A DNA stretch of 28,074 nucleotides, taken from NCBI RefSeq assembly GCF_000003605.2, contig NW_003141317.1, positions 265,191-293,264 of the forward strand, given 5' to 3'. Positions 5,344 to 26,300 of the stretch are shown in pieces. The translations under genes were made by a program, and so were the position numbers. The stretch is from Saccoglossus kowalevskii. Its lineage: Eukaryota; Hemichordata; Enteropneusta; Harrimaniidae. A model generated the notes under the pieces. The model saw nothing but the letters and a program-made list of their open reading frames with translations. It was not told the DNA's origin and did not search any database. Every line of letters begins with the position of its first letter. The first letter of the stretch is position 1.

Positions 5344-8300
5344 CTGGAACATTAATTAATATTATTATAATAATTGATACAATCATACAAGTTCACTTTT
5401 TTTAGTCAATGGCATACTTCGAATATATGAATAAATTTCATAATACTAGGTAGGGAGTCTTGAGACCTTAGGTCACTCACCAATGAATCCCATGCTGCGA
5501 CCAAGAACAAAAAGGCCATTCAGGGCCCCAATTTCAATCAGTTCAGCGGCTTCTTCACTGCAGTGGACAAATTAAAAAAAAACAACATTTATTACAATGA
5601 AAAACATTTGTCATTGAGATTTCTCTGGATATTGCAAGATCAAAACAACTGATCACCTACTTTGTTTTAAAATATTGTTCATTCCCTCCAGACTGTTGTT
5701 AACTTACTTTGTAAAACATCCGCAATTCCGAAGTAGATCAACAAATGCAACACCAATAAATCCATCAACATTCAGAATCAGGTTGGGTTTCTGTAAAGTT
5801 AGCAAAATTATAGAAAATTGATTTGATGTACAGATATGTGTTATTTAGTTTGACTGAAATTGTCATCTAGACGTTCTTACCTTAGCGGTTGTGACTTTCT
5901 CAACATCCATCGCGTAGTCTAATAATGGCGTAGCTGGGAAATTGGCCTTAGCATACTCTTTCAATATCACTACACGCATATCTGGATTGTTGATCTGATG
6001 AAACAAGGCATGGTATGCAGTATAAATAACAGTAATAATGTTCCTGGCATTTTGTTAAATGATTGTTTTCAAGAGATAAATATCATCAAAGTTTGGGGCA
6101 AACTTGCATTTTGGGCAGTCACAGATATAAACTACTGTAAACTACTTCAGTTTCATAAGTCAGTGAAATTTTGCAGCAAACTTTTTTTTTCAAATGTGTT
6201 TGTGCCAGGCGACAGTTTTTTTTTTTATGTAAGTGCAAATTGCAAGTGCTAGTGCTGACACATAGTACATTTTGCCACAGAAGTCATATTCATGTTTTGG
6301 ACTACATAACAAGGCTGTGTGGCCATCTCTCTGTCAAATGTCAATTTTAATGCGCTATCTTGGTGTCAACCAGGCCTGGACGAACACAAGCACCTGCAGA
6401 CCTTAACCAAGGTTCCCCCAAAGTCGCATTCGTTAGTGAATGAATCTCAGCTAGTGGAATTGGCCTTCCCATTGAGTCTGTGGCACACTCGCCCAGGGTA
6501 GAGGTCGACCCTTTGATGTTCAGCCTAAGGTAAGATTTGAACTCGGGTATACCGATCATGAGTCTGATGCGACAACCACGATGCTACCAGTGACAAACTT
6601 TAAGTGACTTTCGGAAATGTTGTCTTCAAGAACGACATAAAGTTGATGGGGTGATTAGTTTTAATGGTAGAAAACTAAAATAAAATTACATTGAGTTGAG
6701 TTCGTTGTACGTCTAACATTGCATATACAACATATGAAAATTACATTTTTACAATCGCTAAACAACAAATGTGTCGCTTTATTTTAATTCTGAACAAGCA
6801 GCCTGTCGGCTGAGATAGCTCCGCTGTTAGCAATGCACATTTCAATTAAAGAACAGAATACATCTTTAGAAAATGAACAATATGTATAGTATCAAGGCAA
6901 TGGGACAAGATTTCAAAAATATCACTTTTCACCAAAGTGACAAAAATATTCATCAAAATTGGAGAATTAAAGATATCATCACAATATGTAATATCAAAGC
7001 AATTGGACTTGCGGTTTTAAACAAGAAGTTGAAAATATCACTTTTTACCAAAAATGACAAAAATATTCACCAAAATTAGAGAATTGAAGATAATTTCATG
7101 AAATGAACAAATCTGAGAGAGGTCTGCCCAAGGTACATATACACCAAGTATCAAAGCATTTAGGGTTGTAGTTTTCAAGAAGAAGTCGAAAAAGTAAAAC
7201 ATTGACACGAACGACGGACGCAGGAAGATGGGAGATGACGAACAATCACTAATATGATAAGCTCCGCTCGACAAAGTCGACAGCGGAGCTAATCATTTAT
7301 TATAGATGTAAAACTTTTTCATGCACGCTTAAATAAAAACATGAGGTCTTAGCAATGGATGAAAATGCAATAAAAGAACTCAAATACACATGTTATGTGT
7401 TACTTCAACAAAATGAAAGCGACAGGATCAGACTTTTGTAAAATTTTCTAAGAGAGGTACACAAGTGAAATTGAACAGTCTGAGAAACATTATTTCCATT
7501 CAACATGCATCCAAATACACCCGATTTAAGACAGCTTTTATGGTGTTTGTATTCACAGCTTTTTTTGTTAAGTAGACGAAACACTGGTAACACAAACATA
7601 CATTGTTCGTTTTGCGACACACAGTCAGTGTGTAAAAAGAAACTAAATGATATATTTGTTGATAATACCACATGTAGTGGCTGGCTCAAACACAGAGGTC
7701 AATTTGTTTCAGTATCCACATTAATGTTCAGACTAAATTTATGAGATACCTGTCAGTTACTCGTTTTTAATTCCAGTTTGTATTTCATATTTACAAAAAT
7801 ACAAGTGTAGCCATAGCAAATTTGTGTAAAAACAGTCAAAAGATTAGGAGGTCAACCTAAACTACATTTTAAATACTATAAAACATGTCTTTTTAGCTAG
7901 CATGTTATTTTAGCTAATCTGTACTTTCTCTAATTCAAGATGTCACTAATTTAAAATACAGTATTTTCTCACAATGAGATTGTTGACACTTTAGCTAAAT
8001 AAAGATTCAGTTACTTTATGCATTGAGTCAAGTTTGCTAAAATGACATGTAACTATTTAAACATGTTAACAGTACTTTGCTTTTGACAGATCATTGCATT
8101 ATCACACATTTGGATACAGACCAAAAACAATTTCCAGAATTTATGCACGTGCGTGTTAATTGTTTATTAAAATTTGGATTTTTCATGAAAATTTAATTTT
8201 TCTTTCATTCTTTCAATTGTGACAAAAAAGCGGATGTGCATGATGTCCAAACCACCTATTTTGTATGGGCCTTGCTGGATGTTATTAAGCAAGCAGTCAG

Positions 8301-11300
8301 TCAGCTGAGATAGCTCCGCTGTTAGCAATGCACATTTCAATTAAAGAACAGAAGATATCATTACAAAATGAACAAATCTAAGAGAGGTCTACCCAAGTAT
8401 CAAAGCAATCAGGTCGTTATTTCCTACAGCTAATAAGGTTATTAAAATGTTCTTATTTGGAATGGGAATGTGTAATCTTTAATGCAAGGCTGTTAACTTT
8501 TTCGCATGATTGTTAAATTTGAAAGTTACCTCTGGTGTCTGGTTCACAATTTTGAAGTAGTTATAAGATGGGTTATGGTAATCAAGAATTATTAGAAAAT
8601 TTTGATTAACACTCTTGCAAAAAAATTGTACTAAAAACAAACCAATTCAGCATTTTGTCACCGAAAACTATATTTCAGGTTAGATTAAAAAAAAAGGTAC
8701 TGGTAGTTGACTAGAGTCCAAATCAAAAATTAAGTAACATATTTGAAACAAACAAATGTGATTACTTGTGGACCGACTAATCAGACTTTGAAATTTGATT
8801 ACCGGTAATATTTTATATAAATATGGTAAATTGACAAAAATTTACCTTCAGCATTCAAAGTAACCCTTGACCTTCAGCATTCAAAGTAACCCTTGACCTT
8901 TAGCACTCACACAACCCTTGACCTTTAGCATTCAAAAACCCTTGACCTAGATATTCAAATGATTAAATATCTAGAGAAGACATTAGGTGCATGAGACAAC
9001 AACATTGACATTCAAAGAAGCACCAACTTTCATGTAGTTAACACTTACTGATTTAACTCTATGCCCAATTCCCATAATCAGACGATGTTCTTTTCGCATT
9101 TTATTTACAAATTCCATCGGGATTAAACCAGCATCATGCGCTTCACTGAACTGCCGAGCTGCTGCATCTAATGCACCACCAAAACGGTCACCCTGGTAAC
9201 AAGAATAGAAAACAGTACATATGTTATAATGATTATAAACAGTTGTACATTTCAATATGACATTCTATCAAAAAACAGTATAAAGAAAAATCACACTTCA
9301 TTTTATTGAAGCGTTTAATTACTATTGCAAGGAAACAAGGCCAATATAAATGTGATAAAGCAATGTGTTGTTTCAGTGCATAAAAAGAAGTAGTTAGTGT
9401 GTAGCACCCTCACTGGCAGCAATGTGAGAGGATTTCTAAGGATTATTATTCACCAAATATAAACACCACAGTAAAATAATGCAGTTAATTTTGATGTTTT
9501 GTTTTCATTTGTGCAAAAGACTATTATTCAGTGACCGAGGCACCTGGGGGCAGAGGGGCCAGTTGTCCCCTCTAGGGTGTCAGCAAAATTTGCCCATCAA
9601 AATTCAAGTAAAAGCGTTTCAGAGGGTCTAGATTTCAAAATTTTTAAGGGGGAGCATGTCCCGGGAGGGAGGTGAGCAGATCTCGCCCCTCTATGCAAAA
9701 TTTCGTGCCGCCATCTCTGATATTTCACACAATGCTCAACATCTTTATATATATTTGTAACATTTGGATTAATTTTAAATACAAGTAACAATTATCCATT
9801 TGATTTAGTGCTGATCATGTGTCATTCAAACTTCTGCAATCAACACGTTCAGTTATCTACAAAAGAAAATACTGCTTGTTTTGCCTGAAAGTGACAATGC
9901 CTTAATATAACGTCATAATACAAGCACACTGTTTTTCTGTCAACTCCAAAATCCCTAAAAATATGGTGTTGAATGTGCATTTCCTGAAAACATACTAAAG
10001 TACAACGAATATAACTATGACAATCCAACTGCAAAACCAATAGATTATATTTGAATAAATAATAATAAAATTATAATTTATCTTTTAAGCAACTTTCTTT
10101 TTTTAATTTTGATCAACAATTGGGTAATGGTAAATTATGTTGATTTGGTCCATCATTTATCAAATGATAAATAAAAAGTTGCACACAAATTTTGTAGAAA
10201 AAATTGCCATGTTCATAAAGTTAACAATTGCATGAACAATAATAGAAAATTCTGAAAGCATTGTTGTGGATTACTGTTATTGAGGAAGGAGAAAGGGATG
10301 ATGTGAAGAGGTGCTTCATTGCAGCTTATAATTTTATTCACAGCCACAGTACTAATATACAAAACAGCAGAAATAAACATAAATGAAATATGCAAGGTTT
10401 TTACTTACAATGGTTAATAACCCAGAGCAGAGAGAAGAGATGAGATCCTTGCCAGCTCTAGATGTAACTATGGTATTATGTGCACCAGACACTGCTGGCC
10501 CGTGATCAGCTGTTATCATCAGACACATTTCTATGAATTTTGTTGCATATGCAGGTAATCTAAAAAATAAATTAATTATATACCGTACAATTTAAAAGTC
10601 ACTCGCCACAATGTCAATACTGATATCAAAAAATTGTTCTAACTAAAAATGTTTTAACTAAATTTCAAAAAATAGGTCTATCATTTCCTGCCAAGTTAGA
10701 ATAACAATTTGTACTGTTTTATCTAACAGTCAGCTTTATATTTGTAATTTGCAGGATTGTGCCTGAAATGAAGTAAAATAGGAAATAAGTACACCTCAAT
10801 TCACCTTCTCTGAAACAACAGTAAGCTAAGTACACCTCAATTCACCTTCTCTGAAACAACAGTAAGCTAAGTACACCTCAACTCACCTTCTCTGAAACCA
10901 CAGTAAGCTAAGTACACCTCAACTCACCTTCTCTGAAACCACAGTAAGCTAAGTACACCTCAACTCACCTTCTCTAAAAACACAGTAAGCTAAGTACACC
11001 TCAACTCGCCTTCTCTGAAACCACAGTAAGCTAAGTACACCTCAACTCACCTTCTCTAAAAACACAGTAAGCTAAGTACACCTCAACTCACCTTCTCTGA
11101 AACCACAGTAAGCTAAGTACACCTCAACTCACCTTCTGTAAAAACACAGTAAGCTAAGTACACCTCAACTCGCCTTCTCTGAAACAACAGTAAGCTAAGT
11201 ACACCTCAACTCGCCTTCTCTGAAACAACAGTAAGCTAAGTACACCTCAATTCACCTTCTCTGAAACAACAGTAAGCTAAGTACACCTCAACTCACCTTC

Positions 11301-14300
11301 TCTGAAACCACAGTAAGCTAAGTACACCTCAACTCACCTTCTGTAAAAACACAGTAAGCTAAGTACACCTCAACTCGCCTTCTCTGAAACAACAGTAAGC
11401 TAAGTACACCTCAACTCACCTTTTCTGAAACAACAGTAAGCTAAGTACACCTCAACTCACCTTCTCTGAAACCACAGTAAGCTAAGTACTCCTCAACTCA
11501 CCTTCTCTGAAACAACAGTAAGCTAAGTACACTTCAACTCACCTTCTCTGAAACAACAGTAAGCTAAGTACACCTCAACTCACCTTCCCTGAAACCACAG
11601 TAAGCTAAGTACACCTCAACTCACCTTCTTTTAAACCACAGTAAGCGAAGTACACCTCAACTCACCTTCTCTGAAACAACAGTAAGCTAAGTACACTTCA
11701 ACTCACCTTCTCTGAAACAACAGTAAGCTAAGTACACCTCAACTCACCTTCCCTGAAACCACAGTAAGCTAAGTACACCTCAACTCACATTCTTTTAAAC
11801 CACAGTAAGCGAAGTACACCTCAACTCACCTTCTCTGAAACAGTAAGCTATGTACACCTCAACTCACCTTCTCTGAAACCACAGTAAGCTAAGTACACCT
11901 CAACTCACCTTCTCTGAAACCACAGTAAGCTAAGTACACCTCAATTCACCTTCTCTGAAACCACAGTAAGCTAAGTACACCTCAACTCACCTTCTCTAAA
12001 AACACAGTAAGCTAAGTACACCTCAACTTGCCTTCTCTGAAACAACAGTAAGCTAAGTACACCTCAACTCACCTTTTCTGAAACAACAGTAAGCTAAGTA
12101 CACCTCAACTCACCTTCTCTGAAACCACAGTAAGCTAAGTACTTCTCAACTCACCTTCTCTCAAACAGTAAGCTAAGTACACTTCAACTCACCTTCTCTG
12201 AAACAACAGTAAGCTAAGTACACCTCAACTCACCTTCCCTGAAACCACAGTAAGCTAAGTACACCTCAACTCACCTTCTTTTAAACCACAGTAAGCGAAG
12301 TACATTTCAACTCACCTTCTCTGAAACAACAGTAAGCTATGTACACCTCAACTCACCTTCTCTGAAACCACAGTAAGCTAAGTACACCTCAATTCACCTT
12401 CTCTGAAACCACAGTAAGCTAAGTACACCTCAACTCACCTGCTCTGAAACCACAGTAAGCTAAGTACACCTCAACTCACCTTCTCTGAAACCACAGTAAG
12501 CTAAGTACACCTCAACTCACCTTCTCTGAAACCACAGTAAGCTAAGTACACCTCAATTCACCTTCTCTTAAACCACAGTAAGCTAAGTACACCTCAACTC
12601 ACCTTCTCTGAAACCACAGTAGACTAAGTACACCTCAACTCACCTTCTCTGAAACCACAGTAAGCTAAGTACACCTCAACTCACCTTCTCTGAAACCACA
12701 GTAAACTAAGTACACCTCAATTCACCTTCTCTAAAAACACAGTAAGCTAAGTACACCTCAACTCACCTTCTCTGAAACCACAGTAAACTAAGAACACCTC
12801 CAAGTCCCATTTCTTCTTTGAACACTTCAGTGATAGGCATACCAGCATAAACCAGTTCTTGACCTCTCTCATCACAGATACTAGTCATGAAAGAAGCAGG
12901 CTTGCGAATCAAACCAAGTTCCTGATAAATGGAATAATATGTTAATGAGTAGAACCCGATAAAAAATACAAGGCATAAATTCATGAATGTACCTTTATTG
13001 TGAACTTACAAAAGTAGATTTATGCTGTGGATACATATAACAATAGACACAAGTCCAATATATATAGGAACATAACATGGTCTACACTAAATCTGTGCAT
13101 CAGGTCGAGTTTCACTGAACCTATGCCAGATCATGACAGTCATTTTCACATCAGGTACTTCCACGACAAAAAAATTATAATTTCACATCTGTAAATTTTA
13201 AATATCACACGCTATTCTTAATTAATATCTGGTGGAACTAAAATTTGTTTATTGTGTCTCAAAAGAGACACTGTTGAAATATAATAGGTTTATTATTAGA
13301 CAATGCAAGAAGAATACAAGAATGTGCCTGATTGGCTAGAAAACCCTAATAACTAATAGTCTGACCAATCAGAGAGCAACTTGGTTTTTGTATGTATCAA
13401 ACTCTGCCTTGTTTATATGATTCTACTCAATTGCATTTATGGTACATTTTATTTTTATATGTGAAATATTATTTTAAGGCAACAACAATTATGCTGACAG
13501 AAAAACTGCAGCAATTCTTATGTATCTGAAAAGATAGAGTGACCGAATAAACCTTTTAGAGCCAACATTTTTCCCACCAACATTTTTTTTGTTTTTTGAT
13601 CATTTTCGAGCGAATGGACATAACCTGGGAGGTACAAGAGTTGAATATTTTGGAAACTTTCTGTGAATCATGCAACATATTATTTTGAAAGTAGTGAGAA
13701 AAGATGACTTTGGCACATGAGAGGATAATTACTGTGCTTTATGAAACATTGGAGATCTATAGTGAGGCTCCAGTCAAAGTCAAGGCTACTTTACTAATTT
13801 TTCCCTCTAAAGTTTTAACAGCATTTTGCACAATTTTTATGTGTTATTTGTTGATTTATTTGTTGATTTATTTGTTGATTTATTTGTTGATTTTGGATTC
13901 AAAGGAGATAATTCCCCATTATTTGCATGTTTAGATCAAAATGTTCTAAAAATCTAGACAAAATATGCCCGTTTATTAGGTGATAAACTTTACTGCATAT
14001 TACATACCCTTGCCCATGCATAATCCATCGGCACTGTGGGAGGTGGAACTTCTTCCTCCGGTATAATAACACCTTTCATAACAAGTTGTTCATATACTTC
14101 CCTAATAAAATAGATACACAATATATATAACGAAACTATAAAGACCGACACCGACTTTTCAACAGAATTCAATTTAAGCTGCTCACTGGAAATATTTAAG
14201 TACACAACTTATTTTGATAGTATGACTATACTTGCATAGCTGGCAATTCATTAAAACATTTTTCTGTTATTTTGTGGTTCAATAATAGATACTATACACA

Positions 14301-17300
14301 TGAATTATCATAAATTAAAAATATACAAAATAAACAGTATTTGTGAGATGAAAAATCAAAACCACTAATACACAAGTGCAGTCATTTTTATTATGCATAC
14401 TAAAACAACCAGGGCATACGCATATTAAAGAATTTCATTAATTTATCGAACGAAGACATGTGCTACAAGAACTCAGTTCATTATAAATCATAGTATCAAT
14501 GTATCTATTATTATATTATACCAGTATATTGATGGTGTTAATCCATTGATTTGATTGGTCCAAACACAAAATTTGCATATGCAATCCATGGTATATTGGC
14601 TGATAATGCACGGCTAAACCAAGTGGCCCTGGAACATGAATTGACTACAGGTTTAATACGAAAATGCATAAAACCGGTATTATTTGATTTTTAGGTAAAT
14701 ATAGTGGTTGAATTTTAGAAGAATATTGAAAAAAAAACTGAATTAAAAACATCTGAAAAGTTATATAACTATAATATTGCTTTTTGTTAATGGTGGGATC
14801 CAAGTTGTGAGCGTCGGTCGTTGGGTGATTGTCGTTCGCCACACAAACCTAAACCACCGTTCCTTAACACCGTGAGGTGCCGACACGAACGCCAGAATGC
14901 TATGTTCTCAATGTTGTTACTTTGAGATGGATTGCGAACTTCCAACAAAGAAAACATGATCTTTAAGTACAAGATATAATTGAGGGATTTAATGACATAA
15001 AAATGCAAAAAAACTATGAGTCACAGGCGAAAATGTATGCCAGTTTGCCACTAATAACAACCGGTGTTCGGTAGCGGCAGCTGACAAAATTGCAGTGCAN
15101 NNNNNNNNNNNNNNNNNNNNNNNNNNNNNNNNNNNNNNNNNNNNNNNNNNNNNNNNNNNNNNNNNNNNNNNNNNNNNNNNNNNNNNNNNNNNNNNNNNNN
15201 NNNNNNNNNNNNNNNNNNNNNNNNNNNNNNNNNNNNNNNNNNNNNNNNNNNNNNNNNNNNNNNNNNNNNNNNNNNNNNNNNNNNNNNNNNNNNNNNNNNN
15301 NNNNNNNNNNNNNNNNNNNNNNNNNNNNNNNNNNNNNNNNNNNNNNNNNNNNNNNNNNNNNNNNNNNNNNNNNNNNNNNNNNNNNNNNNNNNNNNNNNNN
15401 NNNNNNNNNNNNNNNNNNNNNNNNNNNNNNNNNNNNNNNNNNNNNNNNNNCCCGCTGAACGTCAAATATACACAGTTACAAGTAGTATGATGAGTCACAA
15501 AACCGGTTTATTTCACAACTGTACTTTCAATGGGCAAATTACAGTCCAAATTGTACAAAAACCGGAATGAAAACGTGGAAAATCCGTTGTTTTAATGATC
15601 CAAACTGTACACGACCCTGTATTTCAAATCGCGTTGTGTGTCAGTAAAAGGTCAGAAAGGTCATCCTTTGTTATGCTAATTTGTGTGTTTACGCTGCTCT
15701 ATTCAACGTGGATGTTTTTTTTTTTCATGTGGAATAAAAATTAGTTTGTATTCAATTTGAAGTGTTGCGCATGCAATTTTTGTATGCATTCAGCGTACAA
15801 CTACATACTATTCTTATAAATATTCATGTTCAAGGGCCATAATCATGATCTTTTAGTAGATGAAAGTAAACTCTTTTTTTACAAGTTTTATCGAATTGTC
15901 AATATACTGGTATAATATAATAGCAATAACCCCCACCAAAGTTGGGTATACCACTTGATATTGCACAATTCACTCCATATATGCACTCGCCTGCGGCTCG
16001 TGCATATATGTCGTGAATTGTGCAATATCTCGTGGTATACCCGCCTTTGGCGGGGGTTATTGCTTAAATATACTGTATCTATGGTAACAAGAATACTAAG
16101 AAATTCCATGACTGTATTGCAACTTTAATATGCTCATCTTATTTTGCAGAAAAAATAACCATTCTATTATATTTATTTGCATACAGTTTCCTTACTTTAT
16201 TTTATCACCGATGTCATCAAAGCTATTTGGTACATAAGCACCTGCTACAGCCAGTGCTTTATTCTTAGCCCGGGCAGTTTCAGCTTCGGCTTGGGCACAT
16301 GCACCAGCATGGCCAAACTGAACCTGATAAAGAAAATAAGAGACTTTTAATATAGATCTGAATACTAGCTACAGTACATGAACTTAATGTAAGCAACAGC
16401 AAAGCAATGAAGACATTATACTGTCAACAAAAAGTTTGATTCAGAATTTTCCTTTTTATTAAATCATTCTCCATCAATTCAATGTTGCCATGACGACCAA
16501 TACTTTCATCATGTATCCCATAACTTTAAGGTTTATTTTAAATGTAAGTAACAATGTTTATTATTTTTTTTTTTCTCACTATGTTGTCATGACAATTGTA
16601 TTACCAAAATATAACATTTTTTCTATCACCTATACATTGCCATGGAAACCTTAAGAAAGTTCAAATTTCTGTAAATTCATGTCCTCACCTCTGATGTAAA
16701 CATAGTAGCACATGTTCCGATGCACCATGCAACAATTGGTTTTGTGATTCGCCCATTCTCAATTTGAGAACAGATTTCATATTCTTCAACACCACCCACC
16801 TGTATTGAAATTAACAATTATTACAAAAGATTTTAACGAAGTCTAATCTTTCTTGTTAATAGATATATGTATGTAGGCTAAATACGCAATAAAGTTATTA
16901 TTGTTAATACCTGTTATGTACCAAATGTACCTGGGAAATTTCCAATCAACATTTAGGTATCGTTTATTTATTGTTATTTGCAACTGGAAAATTGGATCCA
17001 TCAACGACAGACAATCAGTACTATGAATAGTTCATCTCATCAGAGCTAATAAAACTAAAAGCTAAGTTTTTTGTAAATATTTTGACAATCTGCCCATCTG
17101 ACACAATTACTTACTTCTCCGAGTAAAACAATCATTTTGATGTTATGGTCGTCTTGGTAACGCAGCACATGGTCAATGAAAACTGTCCCTGGATATCTGA
17201 AATTAAAGGAAATGATCTGTTGTGCATTCAGGTTTCTTTAAAAAGGTATAGAGAAACAATATATTTCACATGAATTAACATCAAGAAAATAAATTGAAAC

Positions 17301-23300: not shown

Positions 23301-26300
23301 AGAATACACTGAATACAGCAATACATGTTAGTTTTGACACAGTAGCAGATTAGTAATTAAAAGGTAACATGCTTGCTTCAATGTGCAGAGTCACTAGTAA
23401 TGTTAAGGAATTACAGAGTTACTGCAGAGAATATAGAGTTTTGAAGAATTACAGCATGATGTGGAGCGGGGGGAGGGGAGGGGGTCAAATCAGCTGAGAG
23501 TACATGCCTACCTCCTTTTTGATATCCTGGCCAGAAAGCATGCGGAAAAGATAGAGGAATTAATACAGCATTCAAGATATTGGTGCTAGAAGTAGCATCA
23601 TTGACAAGTCACAGAATCGAAGAATGAGAATTAGAAATACAGAAACTGTACAAGCATAAGGTATCCAAGCTTTATTAATGCTTTTTTAAAAGTTTTTGTT
23701 ATCTTGATAATAAAATGTAACTGTCTGTACTTTTATCAGTTTATATTACATATAGGTAAATTGATTTTTATCACCAGTTCCCTTTTTTCATCACAAATTC
23801 AAACAAGCAGCCTATCGACTGAGATAGCTCCGCTGTTAGCAATGCACATTTCAATTAAAGAACTGAAGACATCATTAGAAAATGAACAATATGAATAGTA
23901 TCAAAGCAATCGGACTTGCAGTTTTTAACAAGAAGTCGAAAATATCACTTTTTACCAAAAATTACAAAAATATTCACCAAAATAAATTAATTAGAGAATT
24001 GAAGATATCATCACAAAATGGACAAATCTGAGAGAGGTCCACATGTAGTACCTATATACACAATGTAAGTAATATCAAAGCAATCGGACTTGCAGATTTT
24101 AACAAGAAGTCGAAAATATCACTTTTTACCAAAAATATTCACCAAAATTAGAGAACTGAAGATATCATCACAAAATGAGCAAATCTGAGAAAGGTCTACA
24201 TGTAGTATCTATATATGTAATATCAAAGCAATTGAACTATTGGTTTTTAACAAGAAGTCGAAAATATCACTTTTTACCAAAAATGACAAAAATATTCACC
24301 AAAATTAGAGAATTGAAGATATCATCACGAAATGAACAAATCTGAGAGAGGTTCACATGTAGTACCTATATATGTAGTATCAAAGCAATTGCACTTGCGG
24401 TTTTTAACAAGAAGTCGAAAATATCACTTTTTACCAAAAATGACAAAAATATTCACCAAAATTAGAGAATTGAAGATATTAACATGAAATGAACAAACCT
24501 AAGAGAGGTCTACCCAAGGTACATATACACCAAGTATCAAAGCATTCAGGCTTGTAGTTTTCAAGAAGAAGTCGAAAAAGTAAAACATTGACACGAACGA
24601 CGACGACGACGGACAATCACTCATATGATAAGCTCCGCTCAACAAAGTCGACAGCGGAGCTAAAAAAGTGCAGAACAATTTGAGTGAGAATGTTTGGTGG
24701 TGAAACAGTTAAATACTGTAATATGTACCGTAGTTTCACATTTTAGTCAAAATGGAACAAAAATTAACCATATACAAAATCTACTTTATATTTTAGTAGC
24801 AAAAATGATTATCTGGTGAATACATAAACAGCTTTGGAAAGTTTAACTACGTTTTTAAAAGTATTGAAAAAAAAATTTGATTTGTATACTTCTGAAATCG
24901 TCATAAATTATTGAAAAACCAGATAGCATCTCACTCAACCACGTCTATATCTACTTACACTTGGCCCTCCTAATAAAAAGTTGGCAGTGACATAGTCTGT
25001 GGGCGGTAGTTCCGGAACATCTCGTTTACCCAATGCCATACTGCAGATGAAAGTCATGTGCGTCTCAGTACCGAATACATGCATCGGCACACCTAGATTC
25101 TGACCTGATAACAAACAAAAAAATAGTTTTATCATACAATTTGGGCTTGAAATTCAAGTAACATTGCTGTGATAAGCAACAATAGAGAATAAACATACAC
25201 AAAGTACCAGTATTACTTTGAACCTTTTCACCACCAGATTTTCACACAAAAAATTACACAGCACTTTTCTCTATTCTTCAATATTTCTGGAAATGAATTT
25301 TGGAGTCAATTAACAAAATTTGAATCAATTTTCAGTTTTTACTTCAAAAAAAAAATTTGCTAATTTTGTTCTTCTGAAGGAAAGACTATTGAGGGAACTA
25401 TTTTGTGATGAAAAGAGGGCACTGGTGGTGAAAAGGTTGAGGAAATATGTTAGCACAGCATTGTCTGTCACATTCATTATAATATTTGTGTAATTTTGTT
25501 GTTGGTTCAGTTGTCTCAAGAATAACTTAGAATATTATGTTCAAAATGACAACTAGCATCATGGGACATTTCTAGTAATTTGCCATAATTCGGGATGTAA
25601 AACATTCTGACCCTTCGTCTGAAATGATTCAACAAAATTAAGAGATTTTGCAAAAATATCCGCAAATTAGTGATGTCTGGCGAGCATCTGAATCATAGAT
25701 AGTTTATTTACAAACGCAATATATATTTATCATTCTCATCCTTCCTCCACCTCCTCTTCCACGTCCTTATCTTACCTAACTCTCTCATAACTCTGAGGCC
25801 TTCCTGGTAGTTAGGTCCTCCTCTTCTCACATACACAGATGCATTGACATCTTTCAGTTTTTGTTGATATTCCTTGAGCGCCCTCACAATACCCTATAGA
25901 TCACAAATTACAATATCAATTTCATTTATCTAATAAAATAAGTGTGTGCAGCACTTTTTTTTTTTTTTATTTGTACTGAAAAAAATTTTGTTTTCCTTCT
26001 CTGGATCATACTGCTATAGACATGCCAGCCTGGCATGAAGAGTGTAAATTACTGTTTTAGTACTGGTGGTTTGCATTTACAGTGAAACTGTTAGCGATGA
26101 CACAGTAACCCTCACCAACCATGCCAGGAATTACAATACTACATTTAGTAGCAACAAATTATTTGTATTGATGATGACATAGTCCCTGTCACTATTTTTC
26201 TTAAAATAACAACCAATGTTCTTTGATCGTCATGCAGTGTGTGCATAAATTTGGTGTAAATAAACAAGGTATTTTACATATGTGGTACGTGTCGCAGATG

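Follow-up and report, generated by a model that had tools for sequence, protein, structure and literature searches.

A 41-bp minisatellite spanning an exon-intron junction of ACLY in Saccoglossus kowalevskii, and candidate splice-donor arrays in the same genome

Studies of how the spliceosome settles on one of several equivalent 5' splice sites often use two competing sites. A natural test is provided by introns that carry tens of near-identical donors. The closest described system is intron 18 of human ABCA7, where a 25-bp variable number tandem repeat (VNTR), with a reference copy number of 23.7, includes the exon 18 donor (PMC5954066). According to the part of that report at hand, a single unit is retained in 2 ± 1% of ABCA7 transcripts, independently of array length. 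An array of this kind is described here in an intron of ACLY from the hemichordate Saccoglossus kowalevskii. It lies within a stretch of 28,074 nucleotides (contig NW_003141317.1, positions 265,191 to 293,264 of the forward strand) that is called the window.

The ACLY array abuts an exon and takes in its 5' splice site, as do the exon-adjacent, donor-containing minisatellites of the ABCA7 and 6-16 type. Compared with what the ABCA7 excerpt gives, the two arrays directly flank an exon whose donor they contain and have copy numbers of the same order; use of the donor of the next unit adds one unit and shifts the frame in ABCA7, as it would in ACLY. The ABCA7 array starts at the GT and has the shorter unit, whereas 34 of the 41 bases of the ACLY unit are coding exon. 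Length variation and a disease association are known for the ABCA7 array and none for that of ACLY. The minisatellite of human 6-16 (IFI6/G1P3), treated by Turri, Cuin and Porter in 1995, reportedly has a 12-bp unit, and more than one of its repeat donors is said to be used in mature transcripts. In a model of intron gain, tandem duplication of an AGGT-containing exon copies a splice-competent AG|GT. Duplication has likewise copied AG|GT in ACLY, but an intron newly made by this process was rejected: its acceptor, at 10560, is not part of the array, so the repeat did not create the intron. The 38-bp VNTR in intron 6 of TERT alters splicing (PMC3948165); it is intronic like the ACLY array and similar in period and copy number, but the part of that report at hand does not describe an origin from a splice junction. 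The ACLY array belongs to a known type (for 6-16, judging by the title of the report). The newer part is the recurrence of such arrays in one genome, of which no earlier genome-wide account was found among the entries listed in term searches of the open-access literature.

The ACLY array and its donors

The window carries ACLY exons on the minus strand, the joined peptides of three adjacent exons matching human ACLY with an E-value of 1.6e-82 (PDB). Tandem Repeats Finder detected an array at 10786-12800 (period 41, 49.3 copies, 92% matches). Its segmentation yielded an exon copy, 48 complete intronic units (46 of 41 bp and two of 38 bp) and a partial last copy (Table 1), confirming the proposal of an earlier note on this DNA that the unit joins 34 bases of the exon ending at 12767 (sense AAG|GTGAGT) to 7 bases of the intron. 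The note's estimate of about 48 copies occupying about 90% of the intron also held, the array contributing 1981 bases (89.8%) to an intron of 2207 nt (12766-10560). The 48 intronic units have a mean identity of 91.3% to the exon copy and comprise 25 distinct sequences. When the 572-Mb genome was searched with a 60-base unit query, all 49 matches fell inside the ACLY array, match counts being lower bounds here and in the other genome searches. The same array was thus not detected at unrelated loci, an outcome that by the note would have refuted its reading, and within these bounds a dispersed satellite landed there by chance is rejected. An ACLY query matched three exons, all of this locus, and within the same bounds neither a paralog nor a second, array-less haplotype was found. 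Rfam gave no match in the window at gathering score.

Only the first donor joins the next ACLY exon in frame, and the junction matches the human protein. Read-through past the exon gives ...WFQRR*, with a TGA ending 4 nt into the intron, so that use of any distal donor would truncate ACLY. Because the first donor alone keeps the conserved frame, preference for the exon-proximal donor is the better supported of the two outcomes put forward in the note, the other being noisy donor choice that may lower ACLY output, and the rarity of unit retention in the ABCA7 excerpt points the same way. Neither predicted strength nor accessibility singles this donor out. Strength was judged from sequence and from predicted pairing to the 5' end of U1. 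The pairing energy is -10.7 kcal/mol for the exon donor and most decoys alike, the exon donor being second best among 15 ACLY donors compared, and predicted local folding ranks it 27th of 49 for accessibility. An exon donor that is stronger or more accessible is not supported by these predictions, and position must do the work. The suggestion that the exon-proximal donor is specially favoured is supported as regards frame and the ABCA7 analogy, but not as regards intrinsic properties of the site. Since the donors are near-identical and the ACLY copies include 34 bases of exon flank, neither strength nor copied local context can account for which donor is chosen, and this leaves position and transcription order.

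The earlier statement that every unit keeps a donor needs to be narrowed. Full-strength donors are found in 35 of the 48 intronic units (34 AAG|GTGAGT and 1 CAG|GTGAGT), the others being weakened to GTGAAT (7), GCGAGT (4), GCAAGT (1) or AAT|GTGAGT (1). Numbered from the exon, the weakened units are 1, 5, 9, 18, 20, 24, 34, 37, 38, 39, 43, 47 and 48. Most units have AG|GT, and in most the donor is preceded, at a distance of 5 nt, by TTTCAG. Weak donors lie at both ends of the array (units 1, 47 and 48), a pattern that was noticed post hoc, has a chance of ~0.02, or ~0.07 when the near-identical units 47 and 48 are counted once (by hand), and was discounted as a signal. Variable columns make up 5 of 9 in the donor and 13 of 32 elsewhere (Fisher p 0.47), with 15/432 and 64/1536 minor cells, respectively. 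Selective keeping or purging of donors is not supported, donor columns being as variable as the others. Elsewhere in ACLY, the minus-strand exon ending VAATFK (26487) has an apparent GC donor, AAG|GCAAGA, at 26486-26485, assigned because the next exon, at 25893, starts GIVR; the five GC donors of the array are thus not necessarily dead.

That the exon is the source and the intronic copies are derived, as had been claimed, is supported by the confinement of the array to one place, by the coding and conserved nature of the exon, and by array variants like those of unconstrained DNA. The 11-residue peptide of the exon copy, described as conserved in animal ACLY, shares nine residues with the human protein (6HXH, GGVLGLLWFQK) and differs at two. 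Variants in the exon-derived columns of the array are synonymous in 4 cases, nonsynonymous in 12 and a stop in 1, against a random expectation of 22/71/7%; the copies appear to vary about as expected without coding constraint. The array consensus differs from the exon at two exon-derived columns, both synonymous: column 8 (T in the exon, A in 48/48 units; GTT/GTA) and column 14 (T versus C in 46/48; AGT/AGC). An array may retain earlier states of the exon beside it. For ACLY and the C-type lectin locus described below, all four differences between exon and array consensus are synonymous (lectin by eye), unlike the two nonsynonymous ones of PSMD13 (by eye), a tally that covers these three of 13 loci.

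The array probably began as a tandem duplication across the ACLY exon-intron junction. The likely seed is a short, imperfect direct repeat, GAGGTGT[T/A]CTTA, which the exon and the intron share at a spacing of 41 bp. The partial last copy ends GAGGTGTACTTA and then departs from the repeat; at column 8 it has A, like the array. It would fit an initial duplication between a pair of short direct repeats, but may equally be a ragged edge. Growth to about 48 intronic copies would have followed by unequal exchange. Similarity among units is highest at a lag of 16 units (reached at any lag by 22 of 1000 permutations) and high again at a lag of 4 (0.003 for this lag taken singly), a sign of block duplications.

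Taken together, the array is probably a near-neutral minisatellite that arose across an exon-intron junction and is tolerated, since the exon-proximal donor wins. Transcribed first, this donor would be used nearly always and complete the normal 155-nt exon with the upstream acceptor, either by exon definition via that acceptor or by early commitment as the first donor emerges. This would explain the choice that genes with ACLY-type arrays need, that of the intron-distal, exon-proximal donor; of two equal donors the intron-proximal one is expected to be preferred. SRSF1 is reported to push the choice to the intron-proximal donor and hnRNP A1 to the intron-distal one (PMC5585400). The downstream donors would be mostly ignored decoys, leaving the array to drift nearly neutrally. 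Rare use of a decoy would lead to an immediate stop and probably to nonsense-mediated decay (NMD). ACLY is expected to behave like ABCA7, and its array length may likewise affect the exon that follows.

Donor arrays elsewhere in the genome

Searches for three copies of a donor motif at short spacing gave, for the real and the reversed motif, 1827/1847 matches with AGGTRAGT, 72/1174 with AAGGTRAGT, 229/32 with GAGGTRAGT and 210/18 with CAGGTGAGT, with a giant array (C1331, C1113) making up most of some of the real counts. The AAGGTRAGT matches, listed completely, lie on 11 contigs whose upstream flanks were all inspected. Six arrays start at the 3' boundary of an open frame that resembles an exon (C3228, which is ACLY, C4090, C4441, C1597, C2126 and C2616), three do not (C128, C1550, C3272) and two are ambiguous from N runs (C166, with a second block lacking an upstream exon, and C4506). 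GAGGTRAGT is found on at least 12 contigs among the matches listed (to C2511). Inspection of 11 of them (C1331 left out) gave seven exon-adjacent arrays (C777, C1608, C1646, C1734, C1912, C2476, C2511) and four non-adjacent or ambiguous ones (C850, C1169, C1737, C2182). The inspected flanks of C224 and C998, found in the AGGTRAGT search only, have no exon-donor start. Exon-adjacent arrays are thus present on 13 of the 24 contigs inspected, ACLY and 12 more, a tally that leaves out C1089, C1331, C1113 and matches beyond those listed. Donor arrays beside exons would form a recurring class in this genome, with 13 candidate loci; the ACLY array, presented earlier as a singular oddity, is singular in the sequence of its unit but not in its class.

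The adjacent exons have homology to tuberin (2e-18), GABA-B receptor 1 (1.7e-20), PSMD13 (3e-16), Nop52 (RRP1; 2e-10) and Lectin_C (C-type lectin; 2.4e-7). In C1734 the preceding exon matches DAGK_acc (3.3e-12) and the exon itself scores 0.0019, below cut-off. Matches below the Pfam cut-offs also link C2476 to SRA1 (1.4e-4), C1608 to TSP1_spondin (5.6e-6) and C2511 to ANF_receptor (0.012). C2476 is presumably SEC31, and C4441 is taken to be ESF1-like. The exons of C4441, C1597 and C1912 had no match in Pfam, nor that of C4441 in the PDB.

By a strict ungapped measure, the exon-derived part in the next copy has at least 13 nt in 9 of the 13 loci and at most 6 nt in the other four (GABA-B receptor, 6 nt; C1912, 6; TSP1-like, 5; ANF-receptor-like, 2). 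The step to the second donor brings a frame shift or a prior stop in 11 of the 13. In GABA-B receptor 1 and in the lectin the first donor joins the next exon with conserved protein (RRVFCE|VYKEKLYGPKYVWF and WIGLNDLE|SDGVYKWTDG, respectively), while a motif search of the flanking sequence did not find the next exon of tuberin and RRP1/Nop52; with ACLY, this check of the next exon covered five of the 13 loci. The 13 candidate loci of this genome, together with the human precedents (ABCA7 and, by repute, 6-16), make a first-donor rule directly testable.

For a permuted 9-mer in an otherwise identical search, the 87 matches (complete listing) fell on 10 contigs, versus 11 contigs for AAGGTRAGT, which suggests, as a rough estimate, neither a clear excess nor a clear deficit of donor arrays. 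In 81 kb of sequence around arrays and genes there are three non-target arrays (period 29-59, at least 3 copies), and minisatellites are therefore common here. Roughly, given a single control motif and a limited sample drawn from the surroundings of arrays and genes, the counts would fit births at random positions, some falling on donors and being tolerated.

Two giant arrays of donor triples are located near contig starts among the matches listed. One, the single giant array of the CAGGTGAGT search, extends over more than 12 kb of C1113 (762-13001) with ~41-bp units; the other spans ~18 kb of C1331 (895-18872) with 47-bp units of GAGGTAAGT. The 47-bp units of the C4441 array have, in the sense strand, an acceptor-like sequence (CTCTTCCAG) and a donor (CAAG|GTGAGT) separated by 20 nt, so that the array could conceivably function as a string of micro-exons.

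Weighing the alternatives

A number of points weigh against a near-neutral array with a winning first donor. Homogenisation outpacing selection could also explain why donors persist in the array. The first-donor inference is based on protein conservation, which gives a floor on correct splicing and not its efficiency. The frame argument fails at two of the 13 loci, the lectin (54 nt) and the TSP1-like one (33 nt), where the second donor stays in frame without a stop. The control for array births is one permuted motif, and reversed-motif counts disagree among searches. In the available part of the ABCA7 report, exon 19 skipping ranges from 12 to 45% by tissue and rises with array length (3.2-fold, smallest versus largest diploid combination), a section heading ties array length to lower expression, and an NMD block raises stop-bearing forms (PMC5954066), so that the 2% of unit retention is the level after decay.

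These ABCA7 data speak for a rival reading in which the ACLY array is leaky or length-dependent, decoys or array length diverting a sizeable share of ACLY transcripts to retained units with a stop and NMD or to next-exon skipping, with length tuning ACLY output. The presence of 35 full-strength decoys within 2 kb and the truncating transcript that any distal donor would yield agree with such leakage; the low, length-independent retention of single ABCA7 units and the donor positions neither purged nor kept in ACLY argue against it. It is unlikely, though the most probable of the rivals. The broader proposal that donor-array introns are splicing rheostats, whose internal donors fire appreciably into NMD or delay splicing and whose copy number tunes ACLY and a dozen or more genes, is quite doubtful. 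A function of the array itself, as a U1-recruiting platform against premature polyadenylation, in recursive splicing or as a cluster of DNA-binding motifs, would make use of its dense U1-like sites and of the TTTCAG of most units. It is very unlikely: the donor columns are without constraint, and the units of the other arrays have by eye no resemblance to that of ACLY. Least probable is an assembly artefact, with the array absent or far shorter in the animal, since in spite of a run of 351 N within the gene (15100-15450), possibly an assembly gap, the 25 distinct units, the 16-unit block similarity and the two 38-bp variants argue against simple stutter, and arrays of the same design lie beside other exons.

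Features of the ACLY window

The exon-proximal donor favoured above and the elements around it are listed in Table 1.

Table 1. Positions of the array and neighbouring ACLY features in the window
Feature	Position	Strand	Remarks
ACLY coding exon, 155 nt	12767..12921	-	last 34 bases are the repeat source; assigned from its translation and a PDB hit to human ACLY
Exon copy of the unit	12760..12800	-	34 exon bases (12800-12767) and 7 intron bases (12766-12760)
Authentic 5' splice site AAG|GTGAGT (predicted)	12765..12766	-	sole donor joining the next exon in frame
48 complete intronic copies	10798..12759	-	35 donors full-strength, 13 weakened
Partial last copy, sense GAGGTGTACTTA	10786..10797	-	agrees with exon GAGGTGTTCTTA at 11/12 positions; may be a relic of the seeding direct repeat
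Acceptor-like pyrimidine stretch and CAG	10763..10785	-	candidate from sequence; abuts the 3' edge of the array, ~200 nt ahead of the true acceptor
Next ACLY exon	10409..10559	-	preceded by acceptor TTTTTTAG

A further minisatellite is found at 8844-8948 (26 bp, 4 copies), ~100 nt downstream of the ACLY exon at 9192-9049; its sense unit has GAAGGT. Diverged repeats with units of ~157 bp occur between ACLY exons at 23889-24600 and 6926-7192 and probably belong to a dispersed element with internal tandem repeats.

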